The notes below the pieces were generated by a model. It was not told the origin of the DNA and made no database searches. It saw nothing but the letters and a program-made list of their open reading frames with translations. The position numbers and the translations under genes are program-made. A stretch of DNA of 64,000 nucleotides from assembly GCA_017395935.1 (NCBI GenBank), contig JAFQNL010000020.1, positions 1 to 64,000 of the forward strand. The letters run 5' to 3'. Of the stretch, positions 30,285 through 49,696 are shown in pieces; positions within the stretch are counted from its first letter, which is position 1; each line of letters begins with the position of its first letter. Origin of the DNA: Oscillospiraceae bacterium. GTDB taxonomy: Bacteria > Bacillota > Clostridia > Oscillospirales > Oscillospiraceae.

Positions 30285-31151
30285 TCAATAGTAGAGATGA
30301 GCCTTGCCAGTGGTGCCCAGAAGATCAAACTTATGGAAGATGACTTCCTTCATGGCCTCGATGCAGGGAGGATAGATGGCGTCAGGCTCCCGGATATAGG
30401 GATCCTGCAGAACTTCGCGACACTTGCGGTAGAAGGGGTCCTTGATGTCGCTGGAGATGTTGATCTTGTTGATGCCCATACGGGAGGCGGCGGCAATCTC
30501 CTCGTCCCGGTTGGAAGAGCCGCCGTGGAGGACCAGAGGAATCTTGACAGCTTCCTTGATCTCCTTGAGCAGGTCCAGCTGCAGCTTGGGAATCATGCCC
30601 TTGGGATAGATACCATGGCAGGTGCCGATGGCGACGGCCAGACAGTCGACGCCGGTCTCTTCCACAAAACGGGCAGCTTCCTGAGGATCGGTGTAGCGAA
30701 TCTCCGTGCTGGACGTGGTGTCCATGTCCTGCTTGGTGGTGCCGATGGTGCCCAGCTCAGCTTCAACGGAAACATTGACTGCGTGGGCTACTTCACAGAT
30801 CTTCTTGGTCAGAGCCACGTTCTCCTCAAAGCTCTTGCTGGAAGCATCGATCATGACAGAGGTGTAGCCGCACTGGATGGCGGTCATGATCTGCTCCAGA
30901 GAGGAGCCGTGATCCATATGGATGCAGACGGGGACAGAGGCCTTGTGTGCCTCTTCTACGAGAGCGGTGATGAAGGAAGGACGGGCCAGCTCCAGCTCCA
31001 GAGGATGAACTTCGATGATCACGGGAGCCTTAGCTGCCTCGCTGGCCTCCAGAATACCGCGCATGATCATGCCGGTAGGAGTATTGAAAGCGGGAACTGC
31101 AAAATTGTGTTCGTTGGCCACAGCCAACATGGTTTTCATATTGACTAACAT
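30285..31151 (-). CDS. class II ketose-bisphosphate aldolase (first of two in the locus)
   Basis: A 288-residue Zn-dependent aldolase of the FbaA/GatY/KbaY family, which splits a ketose 1-phosphate or bisphosphate into DHAP and an aldehyde. HMDHG at 78-82 gives the catalytic Asp (D80) and a Zn His (H81); EAELGTIG holds the Glu region, GTCHGIYP the second Zn His, LHGGSSN the third and INISSDI the phosphate loop. Start at 31151 behind AGGAGGT. Its promoter shares an identical 17-bp sequence with that of the importer operon at 34152, so it belongs to the same regulon although it is transcribed away from the rest. Confidence 0.9.
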   Translation of the reverse strand: MLVNMKTMLAVANEHNFAVPAFNTPTGMIMRGILEASEAAKAPVIIEVHPLELELARPSFITALVEEAHKASVPVCIHMDHGSSLEQIMTAIQCGYTSVMIDASSKSFEENVALTKKICEVAHAVNVSVEAELGTIGTTKQDMDTTSSTEIRYTDPQEAARFVEETGVDCLAVAIGTCHGIYPKGMIPKLQLDLLKEIKEAVKIPLVLHGGSSNRDEEIAAASRMGINKINISSDIKDPFYRKCREVLQDPYIREPDAIYPPCIEAMKEVIFHKFDLLGTTGKAHLYY

Positions 31152-31265
31152 GGAATGATACCTCCTGCAGTAGATGCAGATCCGGTCCCGGGAGAACCAT
31201 CCGGGAGTTGAAGGCAGAGCCTGCGGATGGACCTGAAAAATTAAAAACAAGAACCGGTACTACAC

Positions 31266-31282
31266 TGTAATTATATTTTCAT
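31266..31282 (-). promoter_or_regulatory. 17-bp candidate RpiR operator over the aldolase -10 box
   Basis: ATGAAAATATAATTACA on the minus strand, identical in sequence and in position relative to the -10 box to 34045-34061. The imperfect palindrome TGAAAATATAATTACA fits the TGnAA...TTnCA form of RpiR-family operators. Confidence 0.7.
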
Positions 31283-31298
31283 CTATGCAAGTTGTCAA
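31270..31298 (-). promoter_or_regulatory. consensus promoter of the aldolase gene
   Basis: On the minus strand TTGACA, 17 bases, TATAAT, a perfect sigma-A match; leader of about 110 bases. The rest of the 31152-31589 gap is A/T-rich and holds a further operator-like sequence at 31413-31428 and the rpiR promoter. Confidence 0.85.
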
Positions 31299-31412
31299 GA
31301 AAAGCGAGAAAGAACTTTTTTGAAATTGTTCACATAAATGTCATCAAAGACGAAGAAATATCTGGAAAAGCAGGAAAAAACCACCGGCAAAAGTTTCGGT
31401 AGCGAAAATTGA

Positions 31413-31589: not shown

Positions 31590-32495
31590 ATGCAAGTGAT
31601 GTCCGACCCTTTTCTGATCATCAAATCCAACTATACTCAGTTTAATCCCGCCATGCAGCAGATCGCCGATCTGATTCTGACCCGGTCTCCTGAGCTGATC
31701 AACTCTACCATCGGCGATATCGCAGAGCGGGCCGGGGTGAGCAATGCCTCGGTAACCCGCTTCGTTCAGATGCTGGGCTATGATAACTTTAAGACGTTCC
31801 ATCGCAGCCTTCAGCACAGTCTGCTCTCCCACCGGCTGGCCTCCAAGGAACAGCAGAACGCCTCCTCGCTGATCTATGGCGGCGGGGTTCCCAATACCGA
31901 CGATCCGGAGGGCATCTGCCGCTATGTGATTGAGAGCGAGATTGAGATGCTCCGGGATACCCTCCAGCTTATGGACTTCAAGGTGATCAAACGGGTTGCG
32001 CAGAAGATTCTCAACGCCAGAAGCGTAATCTTTATCGGTGAGGGCCGTTCCTTTCTGGCCGCGCAGAGCGCCTTTACCCGGTTTGTCCGGCTGGGTGTAC
32101 TCTGCAGCGCCTTTGGCGATCTCCACAGTATGATCGCCGGCGTCTGCGTGCTGGACGAGCGGGATCTGCTGGTAGGAATCAGCAATATGGGTCGGTCCGG
32201 CCCGGTGAACCAGTGCCTCCAGTATGCCAAGGAAAAGGGAATCCCCACTGTGGCGGTGACCAGCGTGGGAGGCTCTCCGATTGCCAAGCTGGCTGATGAG
32301 CTTATCCTCACCGGTCTGAACTACGGTAACTTTGCCAATCGCTCTCAGGCCACCTTCTATGAGCCCGGCTCTGAAAACCTGCCTCAGTTCTCGGTTATCG
32401 ACTGCCTCTACCTGCTGGCCGGCAGTCTGCAGCAGAAGGGCTTTTTGGAGCGCTACTACGAATGCGCCAAGATGATCGACGAAGACCATGTCTAA
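31590..32495 (+). CDS. RpiR-family transcriptional regulator with SIS domain
   Basis: A 301-residue sugar-phosphate-responsive regulator. The N-terminal winged helix (about 15-80) contains STIGDIAERAGVSNASVTRFV. The SIS domain (about 125-265) has ARSVIFIGEGRSFLAAQSA and LLVGISNMGRSGPVNQCLQYA, where a phosphosugar would bind. RpiR proteins sense intermediates of the pathway they control. Its setting between an aldolase gene, a sugar kinase gene and a sugar importer, with shared operator-like sequences at those promoters, marks it as the local regulator. A second Met four codons in (31599) is an equally possible start; the ribosome site is weak. Confidence 0.9.
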   Translation: MQVMSDPFLIIKSNYTQFNPAMQQIADLILTRSPELINSTIGDIAERAGVSNASVTRFVQMLGYDNFKTFHRSLQHSLLSHRLASKEQQNASSLIYGGGVPNTDDPEGICRYVIESEIEMLRDTLQLMDFKVIKRVAQKILNARSVIFIGEGRSFLAAQSAFTRFVRLGVLCSAFGDLHSMIAGVCVLDERDLLVGISNMGRSGPVNQCLQYAKEKGIPTVAVTSVGGSPIAKLADELILTGLNYGNFANRSQATFYEPGSENLPQFSVIDCLYLLAGSLQQKGFLERYYECAKMIDEDHV

Positions 32496-32567: not shown

Positions 32568-33767
32568 TCAGATCCCAATCAGATTGGGCAGCAGACCGCC
32601 CATAAAGGCGTCGCCCAGACCGATGGTAGTGGGATGGGAGACGGTGCTCAGATCCTTGCAGGGGACGCAGAGCAGCTTTTCCTCTCCCAGCAGCCCGGTC
32701 AGTGCCCGGGCAAACTCCAGTCCCCTCTGCTGGTCGGCCATGGCCAACGTCTGCTCGTAGTCCTTCCGGTCGAACCGGTCGCCCAGACGATAACGGGTGG
32801 CTGCCATGGCAATGCCGCCCCGCAGAGCCCGCTCGTAGCGGTGAGGCTGCTGGCCGTAGGCGATGGTCCAGTAGGCTGAATGGCAGACCAGAACGGGTAC
32901 CCCGATCTGCCGGTAGATCTCGCCAATGGCCTGAGCCATGGCCTCCGGATCCAGAATGTCAATCCGTCGGCCCAGTCGGTCCTGAAGCTCGTCTTCGTTC
33001 ATGCTGAAGAGGCGAAGATGAGGAGCCAGAGTGGAGGTGACCAACTGACGAACCTGGGGAGACTCAAAGCATCCGTCCTCCATCAGAGTAACCGCGTCCG
33101 GAGAGAGAGTCTTCATCATGGCGATGGTGGTTTCCATCCGATCCATGACCAGCTTCTCATCCCGCATCACGTTGTAACTGGCGGCCAGAAAAACCTTGGC
33201 GTCCCGGGTCAGCGGTCCGAATTCCGGCGTGATCTCCAACAGCATGCTGGGAGGATCGTGGGCGAAGATAACCCGGTTGGCCCGGGTAGTAGTGATGTCA
33301 ATTCCATTGGCCGAGATATGAGCTCCCACCGGATACTGAACAATGACATGGGGGTGGAAGTCCTCTCCTTCGTCCGGCACGCTGGCCACCCACTCCACTT
33401 CCTTTGGAATCAGGGCCCGGAAGTGCCGGTTCAGGCTGCAGGCGTGAAGGGTGCTGGGGATGCCGATCTGGCTCATGGCAATGGCGGCCCGGACAGCGGT
33501 GCCTCCCAGCGTGACCTGATAGGAAAAACGCTGGGCAAAGGAGCGCGTTACCTGACTGGAGGAGACAGAGCGCTCGGTACCGGTGCCCTGCGTCATATAG
33601 TAGAGCAGAACCAGGATCATATCCCGGTGAGAGGAAATGGAAACCTCTTCCTGGATCTCTTCCGGCCGGATATCAAAGCTGCGGATCATCTCCTCAATGA
33701 CCGCCGGATCCCACTTGAGCTCAAAGTCCACTGTGTTCTGGAAGCCCAGAGCGATCTGTCCTTTCAT
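32568..33767 (-). CDS. ADP-dependent phosphofructokinase/glucokinase family sugar kinase
   Basis: A 399-residue kinase of the ribokinase-fold ADP-dependent glucokinase/phosphofructokinase family. Landmarks are VTLGGTAVRAAIAMSQIGIP (sugar-site region, about 88-107), NRVIFAHDPPSMLL, FSMNEDELQDRLG and the C-terminal GLGD motif at 383-386 (catalytic D386). Archaeal members use ADP to phosphorylate glucose or fructose 6-phosphate; bacterial members are less common and their sugar is often unknown. It is divergent from the sugar importer and shares operator-like sequence with it. Start at 33767 behind AAAGGAG. Distinct from the FGGY and PfkB kinases 11-13 kb downstream. Confidence 0.75.
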   Translation of the reverse strand: MKGQIALGFQNTVDFELKWDPAVIEEMIRSFDIRPEEIQEEVSISSHRDMILVLLYYMTQGTGTERSVSSSQVTRSFAQRFSYQVTLGGTAVRAAIAMSQIGIPSTLHACSLNRHFRALIPKEVEWVASVPDEGEDFHPHVIVQYPVGAHISANGIDITTTRANRVIFAHDPPSMLLEITPEFGPLTRDAKVFLAASYNVMRDEKLVMDRMETTIAMMKTLSPDAVTLMEDGCFESPQVRQLVTSTLAPHLRLFSMNEDELQDRLGRRIDILDPEAMAQAIGEIYRQIGVPVLVCHSAYWTIAYGQQPHRYERALRGGIAMAATRYRLGDRFDRKDYEQTLAMADQQRGLEFARALTGLLGEEKLLCVPCKDLSTVSHPTTIGLGDAFMGGLLPNLIGI

Positions 33768-34151: not shown

Positions 34152-35480
34152 ATGAAAAAGTTACTGGCAATGCTGCTTGCTCTGATGATGGTTCTGTCTC
34201 TGGTCGCCTGCGGCGCACCTGCTGAAGAACCCGCTGAAGAGCCCGCCGAGGATGCTGCTACTGAAGAGCCCGCCGAGGAGCCCGCTGAAGAGCCTGCTGA
34301 GGAAAAGATCGTTCTGGAATTCCAGCAGTGGTTCGACAACGAGATGGAAGAGGGCTACCTGCGCAGCGTCTGTGACGCCTTCGAGGCCGAGACCGGTATC
34401 CACATTGAACTGCTCAGCAACCCCTATGCTGACACCAAGACTCAGCTGGAAGCCAGCGCTGTTGCCGGCACCATGGCCGACATCGTCGCTCTGGACGGCG
34501 GCTGGATCTATGACTATGCCACTCAGGGCCATCTGGCTGATCTGGATGCCCTCTATGCTGAGATCGGCATGGACACCAGCACCATCTCTGCTATGACCAC
34601 CGTCAATGGCACCACCTATGCTCAGCCCCTGGTCAACTTCCCCTCTCTGATGGCTGTCAACCTGGACCTGCTGGAAGCTGCCGGTGTTGAGACGCTGCCC
34701 GAGACCTGGAGCGAACTGCTGGACGCCTGTAAGAAGGTCACCGATCCCGCCAACAACGTCTATGGCTTCGCCATGAACATGAGCACCGACAACGCCACCT
34801 GCATGGAATTCTTCGCCGCTTTCGCTTGGAACTCCGGCGCCTCCATCCTGGACGAGAATGGCATGCCTTACATGGCTGGCAATGAGATCCTGATCGACAC
34901 CTGCGAGTTCTTCAAGAGCCTGTTTGACAACGGCGTTGTCATCCCCGGTATGTACACCATGACCGACGCTGACAAGGTTCAGGAATTCGTCAATGGCCGT
35001 GTTGCCTTCATGCCCGACTCCGTCGCTCACCTGACCAACATCCGTGAGCAGGCTCCCGACATGAACGTTACCTTCATCAACATGCCTCATGCCGAAGGCT
35101 ATGATGGCCAGAGCTACATGCGCGTCAACAACTGGGCTGTCGGCATTGCCGAGAGCTGCGAGTACAAGAAGGAAGCTGCTCTGTTCATCCAGTACCTGCT
35201 GGGTGCCGAAGTGAGCGCTGACCTCTGCGTCCATGCTGGCGGCTTCCCCGTCAACACCGCTGCTCAGCCCGCTTACACCGACGACTCCGAGGCTTTCCAG
35301 GCCATCTCCACCATCTATGCTAACGGCAAGGGCAAGGCTGAGTTCTACTCCATGCCCACTGCTGAGGCTCTGATGCGCGTGCTGGACGAAGAGCTGGTCA
35401 TGTACATCGACGGTGACTACGCTACCGCAGAAGAGATGCTCGAGAGCGTCCAGACTCAGTTCGAGGCTGCTTATCAGTAA
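34152..35480 (+). CDS. sugar ABC importer solute-binding lipoprotein (family 1)
   Basis: A 442-residue lipoprotein: signal peptide ending LVACG, a spacer of AEEP/TEEP repeats (about 23-52), then a family 1 extracellular solute-binding domain of the sugar type (LEFQQWFDNEMEEGYLRSV, IHIELLSNPYADTKTQLEA, DIVALDGGWIYDYA, FVNGRVAFMPDSVAHL, NWAVGIAE). It should deliver an oligosaccharide or sugar derivative to the two permeases downstream. The spacer closely resembles that of the other binding protein at 25320, though the binding domains are unrelated. RBS AAAAGGAG. Strong promoter and codon usage suggest high expression. Confidence 0.9.
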   Translation: MKKLLAMLLALMMVLSLVACGAPAEEPAEEPAEDAATEEPAEEPAEEPAEEKIVLEFQQWFDNEMEEGYLRSVCDAFEAETGIHIELLSNPYADTKTQLEASAVAGTMADIVALDGGWIYDYATQGHLADLDALYAEIGMDTSTISAMTTVNGTTYAQPLVNFPSLMAVNLDLLEAAGVETLPETWSELLDACKKVTDPANNVYGFAMNMSTDNATCMEFFAAFAWNSGASILDENGMPYMAGNEILIDTCEFFKSLFDNGVVIPGMYTMTDADKVQEFVNGRVAFMPDSVAHLTNIREQAPDMNVTFINMPHAEGYDGQSYMRVNNWAVGIAESCEYKKEAALFIQYLLGAEVSADLCVHAGGFPVNTAAQPAYTDDSEAFQAISTIYANGKGKAEFYSMPTAEALMRVLDEELVMYIDGDYATAEEMLESVQTQFEAAYQ

Positions 35481-35524
35481 GTTGCTCGTTCTGACAACTG
35501 AAACAAATCCTTAACGGGCACATG

Positions 35525-35613: not shown

Positions 35614-36528
35614 ATGCGACAGAATCGGTTGAGTAAGAAGGGCAACGGAACAGCTTTGGTCAGTCGTCTGATCCAGCCCTACGCGTATCAGCTGCCTGTG
35701 ATCGTCTTGATGACCTGTCTGCTGTTTGTCCCGATCATTCTGGTCATCAGCTATTCTTTCTATGACAATGTCATCGTCAACGACAATCCTGTCTGGGTGG
35801 GCTTTGCCAACTACAAGGAACTGCTTACTGAAAAGAATTTCGTTAAGTCGATCGGGAATACGGCTGTCTTTGTCGTATTCAACGTTGTATTTCATCTTCT
35901 GATCGGTATGGCCATGGCGCTCATGGTCAATGCCAAGAGTCTGGGCAGTGGGGCGAAGGCCACCTTCCGTATTATCTACATGCTGCCCTGGATGTTTAAT
36001 GCCACAGTTATCGCTATTCTGTGGAAGCTGCTGCTCAATCCCAGCGGCGTAGTCAATCAGATCCTCATGAGCGTGGGTGTGATTGATCTTCCTGTTGCCT
36101 GGTTCAGCGAACGGTCGCTGGCGCTGGGCGTGCTTACCTTTATCAATATCTGGGGAGGCTATCCCTTCTATATGATCAGCATTCTTGCCGGTCTGCAGGG
36201 AATCTCTGCTGACCTGTACGAGGCAGCAGCCGTTGACGGCGCCACCGGCGTACAGCAGTTCTTCTACATCTCCCTCCCCCAGCTTAAGCCTATCCTGATC
36301 AGTATCGCCATGCTGGACTTCATCTGGACCACCCAGAACTTCTCTTTGATCTGGCTGCTGACAGGCGGCGGTCCCTCCCGTGCGACAGAGATGATGAGTA
36401 CTTACGTCTATAAGACGGCGTTCTCCAGCTATCAGTACTCCAAGGCGTCCACCGCCGCGGTTATTATACTGCTGGTCTGTGTGGTGCTGGCCATCTTCTA
36501 TGTGCGCAATCAGAACAGAGAGGATTGA
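35614..36528 (+). CDS. sugar ABC importer permease (MalF/UgpA type)
   Basis: A 304-residue inner-membrane permease with six helices. The EAA coupling loop is LYEAAAVDGATGVQQFFYISLP near residue 210. Features such as YMLPWMFNATVIAILWKLLLN are typical of the carbohydrate uptake transporter 1 family. It works with the second permease 11 bases downstream and the binding protein upstream. No ATPase gene is present in the operon, so a shared MsmK/MalK-type ATPase elsewhere is presumably used. Confidence 0.92.
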   Translation: MRQNRLSKKGNGTALVSRLIQPYAYQLPVIVLMTCLLFVPIILVISYSFYDNVIVNDNPVWVGFANYKELLTEKNFVKSIGNTAVFVVFNVVFHLLIGMAMALMVNAKSLGSGAKATFRIIYMLPWMFNATVIAILWKLLLNPSGVVNQILMSVGVIDLPVAWFSERSLALGVLTFINIWGGYPFYMISILAGLQGISADLYEAAAVDGATGVQQFFYISLPQLKPILISIAMLDFIWTTQNFSLIWLLTGGGPSRATEMMSTYVYKTAFSSYQYSKASTAAVIILLVCVVLAIFYVRNQNRED

Positions 36529-36539
36529 GGTGACCGGAC

Positions 36540-37370
36540 ATGAAAACGAAACTGATTACAAAGATCGCCCTCTGGATCGGCCTTATCTTCTGCGCGCTGT
36601 ACGCGGGTCTGCCTATCCTGTGGCTGCTGTCCAGCTCCTTTAAGTCCAATCAGAGTATCTTTGCCATTCCTCCCAGGCTGGTGGATGAAACCTTCAGTCT
36701 GGATGCCTATATTGCCGTTCTTTCCGACGAGAAGAATCTTCGGTTCTTCTTCAACTCCTATGCCATTGCCGGTATCGTCGTGCTGGTCACGCTGGTGATC
36801 GCCCTGCTGTCGGCCTACAGCTTCAGCCGGTTTAACTTCCCCGGCAAGAAGTTCATCAATACCATCATTATCAGTGTTCAGGCCGTTCCGCCCATCACTC
36901 TGCTCATCCCCTATCTGGTCATGGTGGTCAAGATGGGTATCTATGACAGCTATCCGGCTCTGATCCTGACCTATGTGGTCTTTACTCTGCCCTATGCCAT
37001 CCTGATGATGACCGGCTATATGAACACCCTCCCCCGGGAACTGGACGAGGCGGTCATGATCGACGGCGGCTCCCGGTTCCGCGCCCTGTGGCAGGTTCTG
37101 GTTCCCTCCTGTGTTCCCGGTCTGGTCTCTGTTGGTCTGTATACCTTTATCCAGTGCTGGAACGAGTATCTCTACGCGCTGACCCTGACCAAGACCAACG
37201 CCATGCGCACTGTTCCGATCGGTATCGCCTCTCTGATGGGCCAGTATGCCTTTGAATGGAACGAGATCATGGCAATGAGCATTCTGGGTTCCCTGCCCGT
37301 TATCATTATTGCGCTGTTCTTCCAGAAGTATTTTATTGCCGGCATGACTGCCGGTGCGGTAAAGAGCTGA
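36540..37370 (+). CDS. sugar ABC importer permease (MalG/UgpE type)
   Basis: A 276-residue partner permease with six helices; EAA loop LDEAVMIDGGSRFRALWQVLVP near residue 165 and a C-terminal PVIIIALFFQKYFIAGMTAGAVK segment diagnostic of the MalG group. RBS GAGGTGAC precedes the ATG. The aldo/keto reductase gene follows by 37 bases, linking uptake and catabolism in one transcript. Confidence 0.92.
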   Translation: MKTKLITKIALWIGLIFCALYAGLPILWLLSSSFKSNQSIFAIPPRLVDETFSLDAYIAVLSDEKNLRFFFNSYAIAGIVVLVTLVIALLSAYSFSRFNFPGKKFINTIIISVQAVPPITLLIPYLVMVVKMGIYDSYPALILTYVVFTLPYAILMMTGYMNTLPRELDEAVMIDGGSRFRALWQVLVPSCVPGLVSVGLYTFIQCWNEYLYALTLTKTNAMRTVPIGIASLMGQYAFEWNEIMAMSILGSLPVIIIALFFQKYFIAGMTAGAVKS

Positions 37371-37407: not shown

Positions 37408-38346
37408 ATGAAAATCGTCCCGCTTGGCCAGAATAAGATCCCTGTCCCCGCTATTATCCAGGGCACCATGCGCTTTGATAAGCTGAGCACCAAGGAAGTG
37501 GCAGCTATCCTGGAGAAGGACCTGGAGCTGGGCACCAACTTTATTGACACCGCCAACTGCTACGGTAAGCCTGAGGGTCTGGTGGAAAGCATTCTGGGTA
37601 AGACCTTTGAGGAGAATCCCGGTCTGCGCGACAAGCTGGCACTCCAGTCCAAGGGCGGCATTACCTTCTTCGACGACGGCCGTCCCTATCACAACTATTC
37701 TAAGGAACATCTGATGAAGACGCTGGATGCCTCCCTGTCCCGTCTGAAGACCGACCATCTGGATTACTTCCTGCTCCACCGCTCTGACGCCCTCTTCCGT
37801 CCCGAGGAAGTGGCCGAGGCATTTGAGCTGATGAAGCAGCAGGGCAAGGTTCTCCACTTCGGTGTCAGCAACGAGGTTCCCTATGGTATCGAGCTGCTGC
37901 AGAAGTACTGCACTGTGCCCATCGAGATCAACCAGATGCAGTTCAGCATTGCCCATGCTGATATGTGCGTCCAGCCCATCGCCACCAATAACCACGACTT
38001 CTACGCCGTGGACCGTGACGGCGGCGTGCTCAATTATTGCCGTCTGAAGGATATCACCATTCAGGCCTGGTCTCCCTTCCAGTATGGCTTTATCGAGGGC
38101 CTCTTCCTGGACAATCCCAAGTTCCCCGAGATGAACAAGGGCATTCAGGACATTGCAGACAAGTATGGCGTCAGTAAAACTACTATCGCTGTGGCATGGA
38201 TTCTCCGTCATCCGGCCAATATGCAGGTCGTCTGCGGCACCACCAACCATCAGCGGATTGCCGACTGCTGCAAAGCCTGCGACATTGAGCTGACCTATGA
38301 GGACTGGTACCACATCTACCTCTGCGCTGGCTATCCCATCATGTAA
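37408..38346 (+). CDS. aldo/keto reductase 1
   Basis: A 312-residue TIM-barrel oxidoreductase that should interconvert an aldehyde or ketone with an alcohol using NAD(P)H. The catalytic tetrad regions are FIDTANCYGKPEG (Asp, Tyr), ALQSKGG (Lys) and DYFLLHRSD (His). The start at 37408 is set by AGGAGGAATCGAC; a TTG 24 bases upstream is not used. It is the first of three aldo/keto reductases in the locus and follows the importer permeases directly. Substrate unknown; probably an intermediate of the imported sugar or polyol. Confidence 0.88.
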   Translation: MKIVPLGQNKIPVPAIIQGTMRFDKLSTKEVAAILEKDLELGTNFIDTANCYGKPEGLVESILGKTFEENPGLRDKLALQSKGGITFFDDGRPYHNYSKEHLMKTLDASLSRLKTDHLDYFLLHRSDALFRPEEVAEAFELMKQQGKVLHFGVSNEVPYGIELLQKYCTVPIEINQMQFSIAHADMCVQPIATNNHDFYAVDRDGGVLNYCRLKDITIQAWSPFQYGFIEGLFLDNPKFPEMNKGIQDIADKYGVSKTTIAVAWILRHPANMQVVCGTTNHQRIADCCKACDIELTYEDWYHIYLCAGYPIM

Positions 38347-41462: not shown

Positions 41463-42194
41463 ATGAGCCGCCTGAAGATCTTTCAAAAAGGCTTTAACTT
41501 CTCTCAGGACGGGCCGGGAAACCGGCTGGTCTATCACCTGCAGGGCTGCAACCTTCGCTGTCCCTGGTGCGCGAATCCGGAAGGACTGGCAGTCACGGGA
41601 GGCAAGGAATACGAAGTGGAGGAACTGATCGCCGAATGCGTCAGCTGCGCCCCCATGTTTTTTGAAGGCGGCGGTGTTACCCTCACCGGCGGCGAGGTTA
41701 CGCTCCAGCCTGAAGGGGTAAAGCAGCTGCTGAGCGGATTGAAGGTGCGGGGAATCCATACAGCCATCGAGACCAACGGTGTTGCTCCGGTCCTGAAAGA
41801 GCTGCTGCCGATGCTGGACTACCTGATGATGGATATTAAGCACCATGACCCGGAGATCCACCGGCGGGTTACCGGCCTGAGCAACGAAAGCCTCTTTGCC
41901 AACCTCCCGGCCATTCTGGACTGGGGAGGACCGATTGCCCTGCGTATTCCTGTCATTGGAGGCTTCAATGCCTCGGAGGAGGACGCCCGGGCCTTTGGCC
42001 GGCTCTTTCAACGGCTAGGTCTGACCGGACGGTCCACTGTAGAGCTGCTGGCCTACCACGAATATGGAAAAGATAAATATCAGACCCTTGGTATGACCTA
42101 CCAGATGGGCGAGGAGGCTAAAGTCTCCTTCCAGCTCATTCAGGCCATGGAACAGATCCTGCGGGAGGCTGGCATGGTGGTAGTTCGCACCTGA
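41463..42194 (+). CDS. glycyl radical enzyme activase 2 (radical SAM, no ferredoxin insert)
   Basis: A 243-residue radical SAM activase with CxxxCxxC at C29, C33, C36 (QGCNLRCPWCANPEG) and VTLTGGEVTLQPE. It lacks the ferredoxin insert of the first activase and so resembles PflA in size. It lies 32 bases before the second glycyl radical enzyme, its probable partner. The two activases share the DIKHHDPEIHRRVTG-type segment but differ enough to suggest separate specificities. Confidence 0.9.
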   Translation: MSRLKIFQKGFNFSQDGPGNRLVYHLQGCNLRCPWCANPEGLAVTGGKEYEVEELIAECVSCAPMFFEGGGVTLTGGEVTLQPEGVKQLLSGLKVRGIHTAIETNGVAPVLKELLPMLDYLMMDIKHHDPEIHRRVTGLSNESLFANLPAILDWGGPIALRIPVIGGFNASEEDARAFGRLFQRLGLTGRSTVELLAYHEYGKDKYQTLGMTYQMGEEAKVSFQLIQAMEQILREAGMVVVRT

Positions 42195-42226: not shown

Positions 42227-44593
42227 ATGGAACTGTTTCAATGGAAGAACCCCGGACAGATCGGCCTGATGGCCGAAGCGCTCTTCCGGGAGGAACGGGC
42301 CACCAAGGGTGTGCTCAACGGCTGGTTTCTCTCCCGGGAGATAGCGGCTGACGCCACTGAGGGAAAGCAGCTGGATCAGGAGACCAAAGCGGCCGCCGAA
42401 CTGGAGGCAGTCATTGCTTCCATGCCGCTGGAGATCAGCGAACACGCCATTTTTGCCGGCACGCAGCGGGATGCCTTTGCTGCCAGCTATGCCCTGATCA
42501 ACCCTGCCTTTCAGGTGGAGACCTTCAAGGGCTACTGCGACCCGCTGGAGGTTTATGATTACGCAACACCCACAGAGGAGATCCCCGCCCAGCGGATCGC
42601 TGCCATGCGGGAGCGGGCCTCCCGGTCGGACTATGTCCGGGATCTGAACGCTGTCTATCGGGACTGCGAGGAGTATACGGAAGAGGTGGCCTTCTTTGTC
42701 GAGCAGGTCACCGGCCATTTGATTCCTGACTTCCGGCCCGCCCTGAAGGAGGGCGTGCTCCCCCTGATCGCCCGGATCGAGGAGAGGCTGGAGAAGGAGA
42801 CGCTGGAGGAAGAGCGCCGTCAGGCGCTTGCCGCCATGAAGAGAGGGCTCAAGTGCGCCCTCGTTCTGGCCGAGCGCTACCGTGCTCTGGCGCTGGAACA
42901 GCTGGAGACCGCTCAGGACCAGCGCAAACAGGAGCTCCAGCTCATTGCCGACACCCTGAACCGGGTTCCCCGGGAGGGCGCGCGGAACCTGTATGAGGCC
43001 ATGCAGTCCTATCTGCTGCTCTGGCAGACCATGTGCATGGAGCAGGCACCCAATCCCTTTGCCTTCTCGGTGGGCAATGCCGACCGGATCTTCCAGCCCT
43101 ATGCCGGCCAGCTGAGCCGGGAGGAGGCAGCCGCCCTGTTCAAGCATTTTCTGGTCTTTTACAACGTAGGTGAGCGGAGCTGGGCAATCTCCCAGAACGT
43201 GCTCATCTCTGGCCGGGACGTGGCAGGCAATGACCTGACCAACGACCTGACTTATGCGATTCTGGACGCCTATTACGAGATGAACCTGCCCCAGCCTATT
43301 CTCTCGGTTAAGCTCCACCAGAATACCCCTCAGAAGCTCTATGAGGAGCTGGGCCGCTTCTTCTTTACTCCCGGCTGCCTGACGCCCTCTCTCTTTAACG
43401 ACGATTCCCTCTTCCAGACCCTGCGGGAGAACGGGGTGGAGGAGCAGGATCTGCCCAACTACGCCGTGGCTGGCTGCCAGGAGCCGCTGATCATGGGTAA
43501 GGACAATGCCAACACCACCAACTCCTGGTTCAATCTGGCCAAGATTCTGGAACTTACGCTGACCGGCGGTAAGAGCTTGCTCACCGGCAAGGAGATCGGT
43601 CCTCAGTCGGAAGAGGAGCCCTTCTCCCTGCTGAGCAATATCAGAGAGCGCTTCTATGATCGGGCAGAGTGGTTTGCCCGGGAGATGGCAAAGGCGGCCA
43701 ATGGAGCTTCTCTGGCCCTGTCCAACCTCCGGGTCCCCTTCCTGTCCAGCTTTATGGGCGGTATTGAGACCGCCGCTGACCTCCGGGACGGCAAGACACA
43801 GGGCACTCGTTACAATGGCTCGGGCTGTCTGATCCACGGTCTGTGCGTGGTCTCCGACTCGCTGGTAGCCATTGACCATCTGCTGAAAGACCGACCGGAA
43901 GACGCCGGACGGCTGATTGACGCGCTGAAGGCTGACTTCGTGGGTTACGAGGAGCTGCGGGAGTATCTGAAGAGCTGCCCCAAGTTTGGCAATCACGATC
44001 CTGAAGCGGACCGGGAGGCCGCTGAGCTGGCTGACCGGATCTCCGATCTGATCCGGAGCCAGAAGAACTATCTGGGCAATCCCTTCCGTCCGGACTGGTC
44101 CTCTCCCTCGACCCATCTGCTCTACGGCTACTGGGTGGGCGCCACTCCCGACAGCCGGAAGGCCCGGGAGATGCTCAACTACGGCGTAGACCCCCTCTTT
44201 GGCGAGGCGGGCAATGGACTTGGCTTCCGCACTCTGTCGGCAATGGAACTGCCCTATCATCAGTTCAACGGCGGCGTCGCATCCCACTTTGGCGTGGATC
44301 CCAAGTATTTCACCGGCTCCACGATGGAGGAAAAGGGCCTGCAGTTCTACCGCCGGATCCTCCAGCCCCTCTTCTTCAATCCCATGAACCAGAAGCGGGC
44401 TCCCTTCTATCTCTATGTCAACGTGACTACTCCTGAAATCCTGCGGAAAGTGCTGGCTGAGCCCAAGAAGTACGCGCCCAACGGCGTCTACATCATGCGT
44501 ATCCACGGCACCTTCGTCAACTTTCTGGATCTCTCTCCCGCGATCCAACAGGATATCATCAAGCGTCTGGACCTCCGGTCCACCGCGTGCTGA
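42227..44593 (+). CDS. glycyl radical enzyme 2 (788 residues, atypical glycyl motif)
   Basis: A second PFL-superfamily enzyme of normal length. The thiyl Cys is C417 in YAVAGCQEP with E419, the diol-dehydratase/lyase-like arrangement. The radical Gly is G761 in MRIHGTFVNF, where most family members have RVSGYxxxF, so both residues around the glycine differ. It follows the activase by 32 bases and the sugar kinase gene starts 11 bases later. I cannot match it to choline TMA-lyase, glycerol/propanediol dehydratase, hydroxyproline dehydratase or the known sulfite lyases from motifs alone; assignment would need a structure-based comparison of pocket residues. Confidence 0.83.
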   Translation: MELFQWKNPGQIGLMAEALFREERATKGVLNGWFLSREIAADATEGKQLDQETKAAAELEAVIASMPLEISEHAIFAGTQRDAFAASYALINPAFQVETFKGYCDPLEVYDYATPTEEIPAQRIAAMRERASRSDYVRDLNAVYRDCEEYTEEVAFFVEQVTGHLIPDFRPALKEGVLPLIARIEERLEKETLEEERRQALAAMKRGLKCALVLAERYRALALEQLETAQDQRKQELQLIADTLNRVPREGARNLYEAMQSYLLLWQTMCMEQAPNPFAFSVGNADRIFQPYAGQLSREEAAALFKHFLVFYNVGERSWAISQNVLISGRDVAGNDLTNDLTYAILDAYYEMNLPQPILSVKLHQNTPQKLYEELGRFFFTPGCLTPSLFNDDSLFQTLRENGVEEQDLPNYAVAGCQEPLIMGKDNANTTNSWFNLAKILELTLTGGKSLLTGKEIGPQSEEEPFSLLSNIRERFYDRAEWFAREMAKAANGASLALSNLRVPFLSSFMGGIETAADLRDGKTQGTRYNGSGCLIHGLCVVSDSLVAIDHLLKDRPEDAGRLIDALKADFVGYEELREYLKSCPKFGNHDPEADREAAELADRISDLIRSQKNYLGNPFRPDWSSPSTHLLYGYWVGATPDSRKAREMLNYGVDPLFGEAGNGLGFRTLSAMELPYHQFNGGVASHFGVDPKYFTGSTMEEKGLQFYRRILQPLFFNPMNQKRAPFYLYVNVTTPEILRKVLAEPKKYAPNGVYIMRIHGTFVNFLDLSPAIQQDIIKRLDLRSTAC

Positions 44594-44604
44594 GGTAACA
44601 GGTT

Positions 44605-45918
44605 ATGAAAGCCATTGGTATTGACCTTGGCACCACCACCATCAGCGGCGTTATCATCAATGATGGTGGAATCTGCCATGCCCGCACGGTGAAAAACGAG
44701 GGAATCCTTCCCGGTTCAGCTGTCTGGGAAAAGATTCAGGACCCGGAGACCATCCTCCGACAGGCCAAAGAACTGCTTCGCCAGCTGCTGGAGATGGCTC
44801 CGGAGACGGAGGCCATTGGTATTACCGGCCAGCAGCATGGTATTCTCTATCTGGACCGGAAGGGCAAGGCGATCAGCCCCCTCTACACATGGCAGGACCA
44901 GCGCGGCGATCAGCCGAGAGAAGAGGGCGGGAGCTATGCCGGAGAGATCCGGCAGCGTACCGGCTATGCCGTCGCCGCCGGCTACGGACTGGTGACCCAC
45001 TATTACCAGACGAAAAACGGCCTTGTTCCTCCGGAAGCGGTTGGATTCTGCACCATCTGTGACTATCTGGCCATGGATCTCTGCGGTCTGATCCGGCCGA
45101 GGCTCAACTGCAGCCACGCAGCCGGCCTGGGCCTCTATGATCTGGAGCGGGAGCGGTTTGACTTACAGGCCATCGAGCGTCTGGGCATGGATCCGGCGCT
45201 GATTCCTGAGGTGACTGGTGAGCGGCTGCTGGGAAAGACGGAGTCCGGAATTCCCGTCAGCGTCGCCATCGGCGATAATCAGGCCAGCTTTATCGGCGCC
45301 ACATGGGGCGCTGCCGAGGGCGTTCTGCTCAACGTAGGAACCGGCAGTCAGGTTTCCATCTATTCCCCCAGGCTGCTGAATTGTCCCGGCCTTGAGACCC
45401 GCCCCTTCCCGGAAGGGGGCTGCTTGCTGGTGGGAGCCACCCTCTGCGGCGGTAGAGCCTATGCTATGCTGGAGGAATTCTTCCGCAAGACGGTAGAGCT
45501 GGTGACCGGTCAGAGTCAGGATTGCTATCCGGCCATGGGCCGCCTGCTGGAAGAGGAGGGGATTGCTCCGGACTGCCCGGTCTTTGTCCCCGCCTTTGCC
45601 GGCACACGGCAGGATCCTGACCTTCGGGGCTCGATTACCGGGATCAGCGTGTCCAATATGACTCCACGCCACTGGATCGGCGGTATGCTGCAGGGCATGA
45701 CGGAAGAACTGTGGCAGCTGTACTACTGCTACGGAAAGGACCATCCCGGACAGAGTCCACGGCTCTTCGGCGCGGGAAACGGCCTTCGCAAGAACAGAAC
45801 TCTCTGCGCTCTGCTGGAAGAGCGTTTTGGAAGCAACCTCACCCTCTCTGCCGGACAGGAGGAGGCGGCCTGCGGCGCGGCCATCTTTGCCGCCCGGGGC
45901 ATGAGACAGAGCACCTGA
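44605..45918 (+). CDS. FGGY-family carbohydrate kinase, sedoheptulokinase-like
   Basis: A 437-residue ATP-dependent sugar kinase. The N-terminal phosphate loop is GIDLGTTTISGVII. GITGQQHGILYLD and WQDQRGD contribute the sugar site, AIGDNQASFIGA and NVGTGSQVS the ATP site, and the C-terminal LFGAGNGLRKN and EEAACGAAIFA segments complete the fold. The short length and GDNQAS element fit the sedoheptulokinase-like branch better than xylulo- or glycerol kinases. It is tightly packed between glycyl radical enzyme 2 (11 bases) and the PfkB kinase (15 bases), so it acts on a ketose or polyol of this pathway. Confidence 0.85.
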   Translation: MKAIGIDLGTTTISGVIINDGGICHARTVKNEGILPGSAVWEKIQDPETILRQAKELLRQLLEMAPETEAIGITGQQHGILYLDRKGKAISPLYTWQDQRGDQPREEGGSYAGEIRQRTGYAVAAGYGLVTHYYQTKNGLVPPEAVGFCTICDYLAMDLCGLIRPRLNCSHAAGLGLYDLERERFDLQAIERLGMDPALIPEVTGERLLGKTESGIPVSVAIGDNQASFIGATWGAAEGVLLNVGTGSQVSIYSPRLLNCPGLETRPFPEGGCLLVGATLCGGRAYAMLEEFFRKTVELVTGQSQDCYPAMGRLLEEEGIAPDCPVFVPAFAGTRQDPDLRGSITGISVSNMTPRHWIGGMLQGMTEELWQLYYCYGKDHPGQSPRLFGAGNGLRKNRTLCALLEERFGSNLTLSAGQEEAACGAAIFAARGMRQST

Positions 45919-45933
45919 AAGGAGGCAGCAGCC

Positions 45934-46881
45934 ATGGAAAAAGAGTTTGATATCGTAGCCATTGGCACTATGGCTTACGATATGATCCTGCGCACGGTGG
46001 ACGAGACCGCCTTTACCAGAGATACCACGGTGCTGGAAAGCGTGGGTATCTCTTCCGGCGGCGGCGCGATGACCTCGGTCATTGCCGCACAGCGGGTAGG
46101 CTGTAAGACGGCACTGGTGGGCAGAGTCTGCAAGGATGCTTTCAGCAGCTATCTGCTGCAGGTGCTGGATGAGGCCGGAGTGGACCGGAGTCAGGTCAGT
46201 CAGGGAGAGAATGACGAGATGTCCCTGACCTACGCACTGGTTCGCCCAGACGGCAACCGGCATTTTCTGGGCCGGCCGGGAACCAATAACCGGAATCTAA
46301 CCATGGATACCTTCGATCTGGACATTGTCCGCCGGGCAAAGATTGTCAGCTACGGAAGCTATTTCGTCCTGCCCGGACTGGATGGCGAAGGCATCCGGAG
46401 GATTTTCACTGAGGCCAAGCAGGCCGGAGCCATTACGGTCGCCGACGTGGCCAACGACTCCTTCCATCTGGGACGGGAGACGGTGCTGCAGGATCTGCCC
46501 CTGATCGACTATTTTATCCCCAGCTACGTAGAGGCCGAGTATCTGACCGGCGAGCAGGATGTGGAGAAAATGGCCCGGTACCTGCTGAGCCGCGGAGCGA
46601 AAAACGTGCTTATTAAGATTGGCGAGGAGGGCTGCTATGTTGCAAACGAGCACCTTGCCCAGACCGTCCCCGCTTTCCATGTAAAGGCCTGCGATACCAC
46701 AGGAGCCGGAGACAACTTCGTCGGCGGCTTTATGGCCGGTCTGGCCGACGGCATGGAGCTGCTGGATGCGGTCCGCTTCGGCAACGCGGTGGCCGCCGTC
46801 AGTGTTACCGGCATGGGCGCCGTATCTGCCCTCCGGGACCGGAAGCAGGTTATGGAGTTGATAGAGAGCAGCCGCTCTTAA
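45934..46881 (+). CDS. PfkB/ribokinase-family sugar kinase
   Basis: A 315-residue kinase with ribokinase signature 1 (SSGGGAMTSVIAAQRVGCKTALVG) and signature 2 DTTGAGDNFVGGF at 254-266 (base D260). Members phosphorylate sugars or sugar phosphates, including the 1-phosphate of ketoses before aldol cleavage. Placed after the FGGY kinase and before a class II aldolase, it could make a ketose bisphosphate. RBS AAAGGAGG. Confidence 0.9.
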   Translation: MEKEFDIVAIGTMAYDMILRTVDETAFTRDTTVLESVGISSGGGAMTSVIAAQRVGCKTALVGRVCKDAFSSYLLQVLDEAGVDRSQVSQGENDEMSLTYALVRPDGNRHFLGRPGTNNRNLTMDTFDLDIVRRAKIVSYGSYFVLPGLDGEGIRRIFTEAKQAGAITVADVANDSFHLGRETVLQDLPLIDYFIPSYVEAEYLTGEQDVEKMARYLLSRGAKNVLIKIGEEGCYVANEHLAQTVPAFHVKACDTTGAGDNFVGGFMAGLADGMELLDAVRFGNAVAAVSVTGMGAVSALRDRKQVMELIESSRS

Positions 46882-46920
46882 CCATAGGAAAAAATCTAAA
46901 TTGTAAAGAGGAGATTCATC

Positions 46921-47781
46921 ATGGCAAAAGAATTGGATTCCCTGAAACAGTATCTGGTTGACGCACGGGAAAGAAAGTACGCCCTCGGCGGCTTCTGCTT
47001 CTGGAACTACGCCTACGGTATGTCTATCGCTCAGGTGGCACAGAAGCTGAACCTGCCCATGCTCTACATCATCGGCGACGCTGAAGTTAAGTTCTTTGGC
47101 GGTCTGAAGAACGCTGCCGCCGCTGCCCGCACCGTGGCAGAGAATGTGGACGTGCCGGTTATCCTCCACGCTGACCACTTTAAGGACTATGACGAGATCT
47201 GCCGGGCCATTGATGCCGGCTTCAAGTCGGTCATGATCGACGCCTCGGCTTATCCTCTGGAGGAGAACATTGAGCGCACCGCTAAAGTAGTGGAGTATGC
47301 CCACAAGTACGGCGTCTCTGTGGAAGGCGAGCTGGGCCGGATCGCCGGCAGCGAGCAGCATCTGTCTCTGACCGAGGCGGAAGCCATGCAGACCGATCCC
47401 GACGAGGCTGCCTACTTTGTGGAAAAGACCGGCGTGGACATTCTGGCCCTCTCTATCGGTACCGTCCACGGCGAGTATCGCTTCCCCCCCAACATCAATA
47501 TCCCCCGTCTGGTCAAGATTTCGGAGAAAGTCTCTATCCCCCTGGTCATGCATGGCGGCTCCGGCACTCCCGAGGATAAGGTGGCTGAGGCTGTGGAGCA
47601 CGGTATCACCAAGCTGAATCTGGCTACCGATCTGGTCAAGACGGTGGGCAAGGCGACTGCCAAAGTCCAGCAGCAGCCCGGCTTCGGCTACTCCGTGGCC
47701 AACCTCTATGCCCCTGCCTATGTTGATCTGGCCAACTACGCCGAGCATAAGATGCGCCTGCTGGCCAAGAACATCCTGTAA
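46921..47781 (+). CDS. class II ketose-bisphosphate aldolase (second in the locus)
   Basis: A 286-residue Zn aldolase: HADH at 83-86 (catalytic D85, Zn H86), VEGELGRIAG with the Glu region, GTVHGEYRFPP with the second Zn His, MHGGSGTPEDKV with the third, and KLNLATDL in the phosphate loop. It is clearly diverged from the aldolase at 30285 (different loops around Zn and a different N-terminus, ALGGFCFWNY rather than AVPAFNT), suggesting a different aldehyde product. RBS AGAGGAG. Followed by two aldo/keto reductases. Confidence 0.9.
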   Translation: MAKELDSLKQYLVDARERKYALGGFCFWNYAYGMSIAQVAQKLNLPMLYIIGDAEVKFFGGLKNAAAAARTVAENVDVPVILHADHFKDYDEICRAIDAGFKSVMIDASAYPLEENIERTAKVVEYAHKYGVSVEGELGRIAGSEQHLSLTEAEAMQTDPDEAAYFVEKTGVDILALSIGTVHGEYRFPPNINIPRLVKISEKVSIPLVMHGGSGTPEDKVAEAVEHGITKLNLATDLVKTVGKATAKVQQQPGFGYSVANLYAPAYVDLANYAEHKMRLLAKNIL

Positions 47782-47795
47782 CAGGAGGAAGGCAC

Positions 47796-48719
47796 ATGAA
47801 GCGAGTACGACTGAGCGATACGCTGACCATCGCTCCGGTAGCTGTTGGCACGATGAACCTCATGACCTGGGGTCTGGATGCCAAGGGACTGGTGGAGCGG
47901 ATCTATGAGTATATTGATCTGGGGCTGACCACTTTCGATCTGGCGGATATCTACGGCTCCGGCGAGTGCGAGAAGCTCTTCGGTGAGGCCCTCAAGCTGG
48001 AGCCCGGCCTCCGGGATCAGATTGAGATTATTTCCAAGGGCTGCATCGTCTACGACCAGCCTCGCCGCCCCTGGTTTGTAACCGAGTCTTATAACCTGTC
48101 CAAGGACTACCTGCTCACCGCCTGCAACCGCTCTCTGGAGCGGCTGGGCATCGACAGTCTGGATCTCTGGCTCCTCCACCGGCCCTGTCCGCTGATGGAC
48201 CCCGTAGAGGTGGCTGAGGCCCTGGAGCAGCTCCGGGCGGAGGGCAAGGTAAAGAACTTTGGCCTGTCCAATTTCCTGCCTGAGCAGGTGGCCGCGCTGG
48301 AAGCCTATACCGATATCCCCTTTGTTACCAATCAGATCCAGATGAGCGTCAAGTGCATGGACTTCCTGGCTGACGGCTCTCAGGAGGACGCCCTGCGCCG
48401 GAAGATGCCTCTTATGGCCTATTCTCCCGCCTGCGGCGGCAAGCTCTTCCGGAAGGATCTGAGCAAGGACGATCTGGCAACCGTTCAGGTGCTGGAGGAG
48501 ATCCGGCAGGAGCTGGGCGCTGAGACGCTGGACGAGGTCCTCTATGCCTGGCTCTACCGGCTGCCTGTCACTGTAGTTCCCGTCACCGGTACCGGTCGAA
48601 AGGACCGGGTCCTCCGGGCGGTCAAGGCTCTGGATCTGAAGATGAGCCGTGAGCAGTGGTATGATATTCTGCGTATCGCCCGGCCTCCCCATGTCTCCAA
48701 AAAGTATCACGATATCTGA
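47796..48719 (+). CDS. aldo/keto reductase 2
   Basis: A 307-residue aldo/keto reductase of the YdhF-like group: TFDLADIYGSGECEKLFGEA carries the Asp and Tyr, IISKGCIVYD the Lys and LDLWLLHRPCPLMD the His; NFGLSNFLPEQVAALEAY is typical of the substrate loop. It starts 14 bases after the aldolase with AGGAGG, so it is well placed to reduce the aldehyde released by that aldolase. It is distinct from reductase 1 at 37408. Confidence 0.88.
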   Translation: MKRVRLSDTLTIAPVAVGTMNLMTWGLDAKGLVERIYEYIDLGLTTFDLADIYGSGECEKLFGEALKLEPGLRDQIEIISKGCIVYDQPRRPWFVTESYNLSKDYLLTACNRSLERLGIDSLDLWLLHRPCPLMDPVEVAEALEQLRAEGKVKNFGLSNFLPEQVAALEAYTDIPFVTNQIQMSVKCMDFLADGSQEDALRRKMPLMAYSPACGGKLFRKDLSKDDLATVQVLEEIRQELGAETLDEVLYAWLYRLPVTVVPVTGTGRKDRVLRAVKALDLKMSREQWYDILRIARPPHVSKKYHDI

Positions 48720-48742
48720 TACCGGAGCAAAAGGAGCGGAAT

Positions 48743-49696
48743 ATGAGATACATTCGGATCAAGGGAGTGGAAAAACCTGTCTCCGTCATCGGCCTCGGCA
48801 CCATGATCATGGCGCCTGACCGGAAGGAACTCTCCTTTTCCATTCTGGACGCCTTCCTGCAGGGGGGCGGCACCCTCATTGATACGGCTGAGATCTATGG
48901 CGAGCCCGAGCATTACGGCTATGCTGAGAGTACGATCGGTATGTGGCTGAAGGAGCGGGGCTGCCGGGAGGAGATTGTCCTCATGAGCAAGGGCTGTATC
49001 CCGGATACCTGCGTTCCCCTTCATGGAGAGGGTTTGGCCATCTCGCCGGAGCACATCCATAACGCCATTGCCGGCAGCCTGAAGCGGCTGGGTACAGACT
49101 ATCTGGATATCTGGCTCCTCCATCGGGATGACCCCAACGTTCCCGTAAGTGTCATCGTGGAGGCCTTGAATCGGGAACTGGAAGCGGGCACAATCCGGGC
49201 CTATGGCGGCTCCAACTGGAGCACCCAGCGTCTGGCCGAAGCCAATGCCTATGCTGAGGCCCACGGTCTGGTAGGTATGGCGGCGTCCAGCCCCCAGTTC
49301 TCTTTGGCGACGGCCAACGAGCCCTTCTGGCCCACCACTACCTTTGTGGACGAGGAGACCCGCCGCTGGCATGCGGAGACCTGCCTGCCCGTTCTGGCCT
49401 GGTCCTCTCTGGGCCGGGGCTTCGTCAAGTACGGCGATCCCGCCGACCTGTCCAGACCGGATCTGGTTCGGACCTTCTACTCCAAGGACAACTTTGAAAA
49501 GATGGCCCGGGCAGAGGAGATCGGAAAAGCGCGCTGCGTCAGCAAGAGTGATATCGCGCTGGCCTATGTCACCTGCCAGCCTTTCCCCTCGGTGGCCCTG
49601 ATCGGTCCCGGCTCGGCGGAGCACGTCAAGTCCGGCACCGCTGTAGGCGATATCTGCCTGACCGGCGCCGAGCTGAACTATCTGGAACTGCGCTGA
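48743..49696 (+). CDS. aldo/keto reductase 3
   Basis: A 317-residue aldo/keto reductase: LIDTAEIYGEPEHYGYAEST holds Asp and Tyr, IVLMSKGCIP the Lys and LDIWLLHRDDPNVPV the His. The C-terminal part (VALIGPGSAEHV) matches the NADP-binding helix. It shows the LLHRDDP form common in the Gfo-adjacent, sugar-related group of the family. It ends the catabolic operon; a strong terminator follows. Confidence 0.88.
   Translation: MRYIRIKGVEKPVSVIGLGTMIMAPDRKELSFSILDAFLQGGGTLIDTAEIYGEPEHYGYAESTIGMWLKERGCREEIVLMSKGCIPDTCVPLHGEGLAISPEHIHNAIAGSLKRLGTDYLDIWLLHRDDPNVPVSVIVEALNRELEAGTIRAYGGSNWSTQRLAEANAYAEAHGLVGMAASSPQFSLATANEPFWPTTTFVDEETRRWHAETCLPVLAWSSLGRGFVKYGDPADLSRPDLVRTFYSKDNFEKMARAEEIGKARCVSKSDIALAYVTCQPFPSVALIGPGSAEHVKSGTAVGDICLTGAELNYLELR

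Follow-up and report, generated by a model that had tools for sequence, protein, structure and literature searches.

What kind of substrate would call for two glycyl radical enzymes (GREs) in the company of three kinases, two aldolases and three aldo/keto reductases, and do these genes serve one pathway at all? Some of the most difficult reactions in gut anaerobes are the work of GREs, and the assignment of new families has brought hidden metabolite flows to light. The genes in question lie in a stretch of 64,000 nucleotides (the window) from an Oscillospiraceae bacterium. The carrier is a gut-type anaerobic bacterium, and the gene set probably dismantles a sugar-like molecule with the help of two oxygen-sensitive radical enzymes.

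All 16 genes between positions 30285 and 49696 are present as open frames with the coordinates first assigned to them (Table 1), and the inventory in the first-pass annotation was correct: an RpiR regulator, a sugar ABC importer, two class II aldolases, three kinases, three aldo/keto reductases and two GRE/activase pairs. Pfam and NCBIfam assign a PFL-like domain to GRE1 and GRE2, radical SAM to act1 and act2, and FGGY, PfkB, ADP_PFK_GK, F_bP_aldolase (two), HTH_6 plus SIS (RpiR), SBP_bac_8, BPD_transp_1 (two) and Aldo_ket_red (three) to the others. Thirteen genes, from the solute-binding protein to AKR3 (34152-49696), run on the plus strand, as does RpiR; AldB and ADPK are on the minus strand. 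Within act1-AKR3 adjacent genes lie 11-39 bases apart; the distance from AKR1 to act1 is 164 bases. The assigned genes have GC3 values of 0.69-0.77. Long antisense ORFs overlie many of the genes and are taken as mirror frames. Reading the sequence by eye, the truer starts are likely near 31151 for AldB and at 37408 for AKR1. The grouping of the 16 genes is not due to chance, because in other genomes, too, their homologues occur together. Neither an Rfam nor a tRNA scan of the whole window gave a match. No sugar isomerase was recognised in the window, as had been claimed, and the translated genes of 24353-56223, read by eye, include no recognisable shell or aldehyde-dehydrogenase gene.

Table 1. 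Genes of the locus, with positions in the window and supporting matches
Gene product	Position	Strand	Evidence
AldB, class II (FBA-type) aldolase	30285..31250	-	PF01116 314 bits; 80% identity in L128, 74% in L130
RpiR-type regulator	31590..32495	+	HTH_6 + SIS
ADPK, ADP-dependent glucokinase/phosphofructokinase-family kinase	32568..33767	-	PF04587 83.9 bits; GLGD and NEDE invariant in 6 sequences
Sugar ABC importer solute-binding protein	34152..35480	+	PF13416
ABC permease (MalF-like)	35614..36528	+	PF00528
ABC permease (MalG-like)	36540..37370	+	PF00528
AKR1, aldo/keto reductase	37408..38346 (ORF opens 37384)	+	PF00248 169 bits; 85% identity in L128
act1, GRE1 activase with ferredoxin-type insert	38511..39359	+	TIGR02494 291 bits (cut-off 174); Fer4 match
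GRE1, short (688 aa) glycyl radical enzyme, ACWE / RVWGWS	39376..41442	+	PF02901 + PF01228; AF2 pTM 0.92
act2, small GRE2 activase (243 aa) without ferredoxin insert	41463..42194	+	TIGR02494 193 bits (cut-off 174)
GRE2, glycyl radical enzyme, GCQEP / RIHGTFVNF	42227..44593	+	PF02901 365 bits; no Pfam Gly_radical match
FGGY carbohydrate kinase, GRE2 partner	44605..45918	+	PF00370/PF02782
PfkB-family sugar kinase	45934..46881	+	PF00294 185 bits
AldA, class II (FBA-type) aldolase, full-locus marker	46921..47781	+	PF01116 279 bits
AKR2, aldo/keto reductase	47796..48719	+	PF00248
AKR3, aldo/keto reductase	48743..49696	+	PF00248

Both enzymes are, to judge from their sequences, GRE eliminases with activases. 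The proposed GCxE-type active site holds insofar as C-x-E is found in both, as ACWE in 26/26 GRE1 and as GCQEP in 60/60 GRE2 sequences; according to two papers (PMC7077986, PMC8473560), C-x-E is the conserved mark of GRE eliminases. Both predicted models have the GRE alpha/beta-barrel fold, with many solved GREs nearly tied in the comparison and no single family picked out. The suggestion that the two enzymes stand outside the characterised families was borne out: their identity to the solved GREs in the comparison is 17-33%, neither reaches any NCBIfam equivalog cut-off, and they fall into separate clades apart from six reference GREs. Choline TMA-lyase, HypD and HpfG/HpsG equivalogs gave 133-281 bits against cut-offs of 1000-1100. 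A dihydroxypropanesulfonate scheme was ruled out (HpfG/HpsG models at 174-247 bits, cut-offs of 1000), as was identity with pyruvate formate-lyase (TIGR01255 at 60 and 70 bits, cut-off 994).

Act2, GRE2 and the FGGY kinase are, by gene content, a widespread core unit. In 82 GRE2 loci, act2 immediately precedes GRE2 in 74 (its cluster is present in 75) and the kinase immediately follows in 68 (70 overall), while a phosphomannose-isomerase-like gene is found in 32 and has no counterpart at the present locus; the isomerase-like protein, used as a query, had no match in the window's genome, in a search run without a positive control. None of the 75 members of the act2 cluster has a ferredoxin motif. 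A carrier with a strain name is Sporanaerobium hydrogeniformans XHS1971, in which act2, GRE2, FGGY and the isomerase-like gene are all present (L081). The presumed radical-bearing region of GRE2 is unusually altered. Its glycyl loop is RIHGTFVNFLDL in 60/60 relatives, with an aligned invariant Gly within RIHGTF in all 60, and 0/60 match the Pfam glycine-radical domain (Gly_radical) at E 0.01. Because this divergent domain escapes the Pfam model, GRE2-type enzymes may be undercounted. GRE2 may be the founder of a distinct GRE class with a drifted radical domain (RIHGTFVNFLDL, small activase). An undescribed radical reaction, with a free sugar or polyol as substrate, would then be the first step of a short pathway that is found widely and consists of activase, GRE and FGGY kinase, often with a phosphomannose-isomerase-like enzyme; at the present locus GRE2 would be coupled to a second, likewise unassigned GRE, a kinase of the ADP-dependent type and class II aldolases. 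We consider this reading doubtful. The kinase, presumably sedoheptulokinase-like at first sight, was set aside as such, its PDB matches being weak (best 61 bits).

For GRE1, 26/26 sequences match PF01228, and act1 adjoins GRE1 directly in 28/32 loci. Among the four misses, L166 and L183 are cut off by the end of a contig, unlike L170 and L171.

Our preferred reading, held tentatively and at somewhat less than an even chance, is that the locus is an accessory anaerobic route for a sugar derivative (a polyol, anhydropolyol or deoxy-sugar precursor) that proceeds by radical elimination, phosphorylation, aldolase cleavage and reduction. Homology and conservation establish an ABC uptake system and a GRE2-FGGY unit that is found again next to ADPK, PfkB, the two class II aldolases and aldo/keto reductases. 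A cysteine thiyl radical of GRE2 would abstract hydrogen from a carbinol carbon, and the C-O bond beside it (to a hydroxyl, an ether or a ring oxygen) would break, while the Glu of C-x-E would hold the hydroxyl; GRE1 would perform the same chemistry, probably on a related or later compound. The product would be a deoxy-ketone or deoxy-aldehyde sugar. Substrate or product would be phosphorylated by FGGY (or PfkB/ADPK), a class II aldolase would split the deoxyketose phosphate into triose phosphate and a C3/C4 carbonyl, and the aldo/keto reductases would reduce the latter to a diol such as 1,2-propanediol and re-oxidise NAD(P)H. The whole would be analogous to anhydroglycolysis with other parts substituted. 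The aldolase and reductases need not be the next steps, since they are absent from most GRE2 and GRE1 loci. Some points count against the scheme. Both enzymes are distant in sequence from YbiW/PflD, and GRE1 is hardly more frequent where GRE2 is present. The phosphomannose-isomerase-like partner misfits a 1-deoxyketose. Class II FBA-type aldolases normally require a C1 phosphate, and 1-deoxyfructose-6-P has none.

The locus combines three blocks, each of which is also found by itself, and it could be a coincidental assembly in which independent sugar modules (GRE2-FGGY, GRE1 and importer-kinase-aldolase) lie on a common genomic island but serve separate pathways. In line with this, 28/32 GRE1 loci have none of the other blocks, most GRE2-FGGY loci lack PfkB, AldA and AKR2, and an ABC-AldB-ADPK-aldolase operon stands without adjoining GREs in L134 and L135. 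GRE1 is hardly commoner in GRE2-bearing genomes than across the order (5/46, at 47% identity or more, vs 26/394) and is weakly enriched with GRE2 (3/10 vs 23/384, p 0.02; with the window genome excluded, 2/9, p 0.11). However, the blocks remain adjacent despite reordering (L128; L129/L130), the L134 and L135 genomes both carry GRE2 elsewhere, and AldA (at least 77% identity) occurs among 98 relatives in two only, both GRE2-bearing. AldA is found in 4/46 GRE2-bearing genomes. The ADP-kinase/importer/aldolase/reductase block is rare. In favour of the preferred reading, ADPK occurs in 5/46 GRE2-bearing genomes vs 0/384 GRE2-lacking genomes of the order sample (Fisher p 1.1e-5, with query and threshold differing between the two sets and kinship ignored). 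The 16-gene set recurs, in all or part, in four other genomes, so that the refuting case named in the first-pass annotation, neighbours not conserved together, does not apply; near-complete sets with changed block order are found in G106 and G108, and the single-locus reading therefore survives. The first-pass view is partly supported, since most GRE2 and GRE1 loci examined go without the remaining genes. We regard coincidental assembly as rather unlikely.

The GREs might instead act on a C3 end product: 1,2-propanediol or glycerol from the aldolase and reductase steps would be dehydrated as a redox sink, with no microcompartment involved. In profile searches glycerol dehydratase comes first for GRE1 and GRE2 alike, followed for GRE1 by diol dehydratase, and in L105 GRE2-FGGY adjoins a gene for L-rhamnose isomerase, whose route yields 1,2-propanediol. 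What makes this clearly unlikely is the loss of the positions that we take to bind substrate in Clostridium butyricum glycerol dehydratase: neither family retains His281-Ser282 or Asp447, and His164 is kept by GRE2 alone, GRE1 having Asn102 there (invariant in 26). The core partner of GRE2 is, moreover, a sugar kinase. Still more improbable is that GRE1, GRE2 or both are divergent AG6P/AM6P lyases of the PflD/YbiW type. PflD is the best single-sequence PDB match of GRE1 (265 bits), but NF007437, presumably the PflD model, scores 289.5 bits, far under its cut-off of 1109, both enzymes fall outside the PflD/YbiW group, and an FsaB-like protein had no match in the window's genome, in a search without a positive control.

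Some loci offered substrate leads. A mannose-conjugate lyase was suggested by the isomerase-like partner and by L031/L042, where a D-lyxose/D-mannose isomerase-like and PfkB pair adjoins GRE2. An L-arabinose-linked substrate was suggested by arabinofuranosidase genes, GH51-like and named by eye in 4/32 GRE1 loci and following FGGY in three GRE2 loci (one Pfam-confirmed). Neither is general, and both count as leads only. According to record titles, many of the Clostridia drafts with GRE2-FGGY come from the guts of goat, sheep, deer, cattle, yak and chicken, where its substrate may therefore be common. GRE2 also tests the true requirements of glycyl loop and activase. Titles and abstract openings of open-licence PubMed Central papers gave no description of a GRE paired with an FGGY kinase, which does not imply absence from print.

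Comparison with known systems may help to place the locus. The activase of pyruvate formate-lyase is small and has no ferredoxin insert, like act2; pyruvate formate-lyase itself carries a Cys-Cys pair, whereas GRE2 has C-x-E. B12-independent glycerol and 1,2-propanediol dehydratases (1r8w, 9rco, 5i2a) resemble both enzymes in predicted fold, C-x-E and top profile matches, but the substrate-contact positions and the kinase partner differ. Archaeoglobus fulgidus PFL2 (2f3o, whose entry title gives no function) differs at 24% identity and has a canonical-type glycyl loop, RVAGWS. The first-pass annotation could name no matching pathway, yet a nearest one exists, the radical-mediated anhydroglycolysis of YbiW/PflD. 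In that pathway FsaA/B is the aldolase and GldA has the reductase role. Two precedents favour the preferred reading: according to PMC12441222 and PDB titles (8id0, 8id7), YbiW/PflD cleave AG6P/AM6P to 1-deoxyfructose-6-P, and human ADPGK phosphorylates 1,5-anhydroglucitol with about 1/20 of the activity that it has on glucose (PMC12441222). E. coli PflD/YbiW (Ma et al. 2024, as given in PMC12441222 and the PDB titles) resemble the present enzymes as C-x-E glycyl radical eliminases with an activase, an aldolase gene nearby (fsaA, fsaB) and a sugar-like substrate. They differ in sequence (28-33% identity for GRE1, 26-27% for GRE2), and the present locus substitutes an ABC importer and kinases for the PTS, class II aldolases for FsaA/B, and aldo/keto reductases for GldA.

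All 16 genes that the first-pass annotation named in this locus were found there. They fall into three blocks: a core of the glycyl radical enzyme (GRE) GRE2 with its radical SAM activase act2 and the sugar kinase FGGY; a second GRE, GRE1, with its activase act1; and a block of ADPK (ADP-dependent kinase family), importer, aldolase and reductase genes. Intergenic gaps measure 11-39 bases throughout the run act1-GRE1-act2-GRE2-FGGY-PfkB-AldA-AKR2-AKR3 (PfkB, sugar kinase; AldA, class II aldolase; AKR, aldo/keto reductase). Upstream on the same strand lie SBP-MalF-MalG-AKR1 (importer binding protein and permeases, then a reductase); a gap of 164 bases separates AKR1 from act1. The host genome (G000) is a 2.07 Mb draft in 46 contigs, the window being on contig C7. 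Four PFL-like proteins are encoded in it, including GRE1 and GRE2; the third (700 bits) was judged an ordinary PFL by eye, and the fourth is another orphan, on C36.

The check on conservation of the whole set came out positive: all or part of it is present in five genomes, from Oscillospiraceae, Lachnospiraceae, Ruminococcaceae and unclassified Clostridia. The blocks change place yet stay together, which argues for a shared function. In G100, one part reads GRE2-PfkB-AldA-AKR2, without FGGY between GRE2 and PfkB, and the other act1 fragment-AKR1-MalG-MalF-SBP-ADPK; no GRE1 orthologue turned up in this genome, where contig ends break the set. The match places of G030 and G098 agree, so the two most likely represent a single genome.

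Gene sets and neighbourhoods in the window and in other genomes and loci
Place	Coordinates	Content
Window, locus	30285-49696	16/16 genes of set
G106		16/16 genes; GRE2 block leads, GRE1 stands reversed at the end
G108		15/16 genes, AKR3 not seen; GRE1-ROK-GRE2-FGGY, then remainder reversed
G030		8 genes on 10 kb contig; order as in window
G100		10 genes on two contigs, both breaking inside set
Window, upstream of locus	25287-29238	Response regulator, then binding protein, ATPase and fused permease of an iron-type ABC importer (translations read by eye)
Window	49916-52984	Acyl-CoA dehydrogenase fused to electron-transfer-flavoprotein domain (684 aa), 219 bases past AKR3, then second Etf-like subunit (by eye)
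L029 (G000, C36)	8560-15404	Third unassigned GRE of G000 (747 aa) with activase, adjoining D-lyxose/D-mannose isomerase-like gene (263 bits vs cut-off 350); fructokinase-like PfkB, sugar ABC importer (by eye) and CoA-transferase-like gene nearby; such an isomerase-PfkB pair also adjoins GRE2-FGGY in L031 and L042
L132	7323-12362	5-dehydro-4-deoxyglucuronate isomerase and gluconate-5-dehydrogenase-type SDR, GRE1-act1, then directly DUF4867 protein
L134	4675-11942	ABC-AldB-ADPK-class II aldolase-RpiR operon without GREs; GRE2 elsewhere in genome
L135	7903-15069	As L134

A scan of genome contigs for GRE2 gave 204 candidate stretches, the best 80 of which (61-76% identity) were kept; these, one fetched relative and the window are the 82 GRE2 loci analysed. 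Act2 is present in 75 of them and FGGY in 70, and act2-GRE2-FGGY is therefore a core unit. A ROK-type regulator occurs in 18/82 and a phosphomannose-isomerase-like protein in 32/82; the one member tested scored 72.7 bits against ManA, under the cut-off of 116.2, and 70.5 bits to solved structure 1qwr. Among 46 GRE2-bearing genomes, chosen by us from the best 80 of the 204 stretches, ADPK is found in five, GRE1 at at least 47% identity in five, and AldA at at least 77% identity in four. In L134 and L135, two of the five with ADPK, this gene lies apart from GRE2, in the operon given in the table. At the 77% level, two genomes in a set of 98 relatives have AldA, namely G000 and G030; each bears GRE2, and AldA is lacking from G079, the third GRE2 genome among them (AldA-GRE2 link: Fisher p 6e-4, without kinship correction, two of the counted genomes being congeners). 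In order samples of 394 genomes, drawn alike for both enzymes, GRE1 was present in 26 (17/168 genera), GRE2 in 10, and both together in three (G000, G397, G413). Relatives of ADPK (E 1e-30) appeared in 1/394 order and 1/391 class genomes, each time the window's own. Across 32 GRE1 loci, act1 directly adjoined GRE1 in 28, and genes of the other blocks were seen in four (L128, L129, L030 and the window); by eye, eight have an AraC-like protein and four a GH51-like arabinofuranosidase.

The glycyl domain of GRE2 is a clear departure. Its loop, RIHGTFVNFLDL, is present in 60/60 sequences, none of which fits the glycine-radical pattern that we take to be the PROSITE form, or a relaxed version, unlike E. 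coli YbiW and PflD, which match both. Of the GRE1 sequences, 26/26 match the relaxed pattern and 0/26 the PROSITE form, with R[VI]WGWS in all 26. Pfam Gly_radical matches 26/26 GRE1 and, at E 0.01, 0/60 GRE2, where HMMER's filters may hide weak matches. Radical-SAM CX3CX2C is found in 74/75 members of the act2 cluster and the ferredoxin motif CX2CX2CX3C in none of the 75; 20/29 of the act1 cluster have the latter. Since an activase lies directly 5' of GRE2 in 74/82 loci (some contigs end at that spot), GRE2 has most likely kept its radical.

C-x-E is invariant, as ACWE in 26/26 GRE1 and GCQEP in 60/60 GRE2. At the glycerol dehydratase positions, presumably His164, His281-Ser282 and Asp447, GRE2 keeps only His164; all are replaced in GRE1, which has Asn102, His205 and Asn367 there (invariant in 26/26). 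A D-P-K-I-N strand and a QxGDNGQ loop are likewise invariant in GRE1. The two pockets thus each look like their own type. According to PMC7077986 and PMC8473560, C-x-E is the conserved mark of GRE eliminases, its Glu holding a substrate hydroxyl, with a different role in HypD.

Elimination as the reaction class of GRE1 and GRE2 is well grounded. Kinases, aldolases, importer and the FGGY partnership suggest that the substrate is probably sugar-like; the order of steps, substrate and end product of the pathway we infer. The appeal of 1,5-anhydroglucitol as a candidate substrate is that rings of this kind are opened by known GREs and that 1,5-AG is phosphorylated by human ADPGK (both from PMC12441222), yet it has no specific support from the sequences. 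By every test made, the GRE1 and GRE2 families fall in no assigned family; GREs and C-x-E chemistry are already known.
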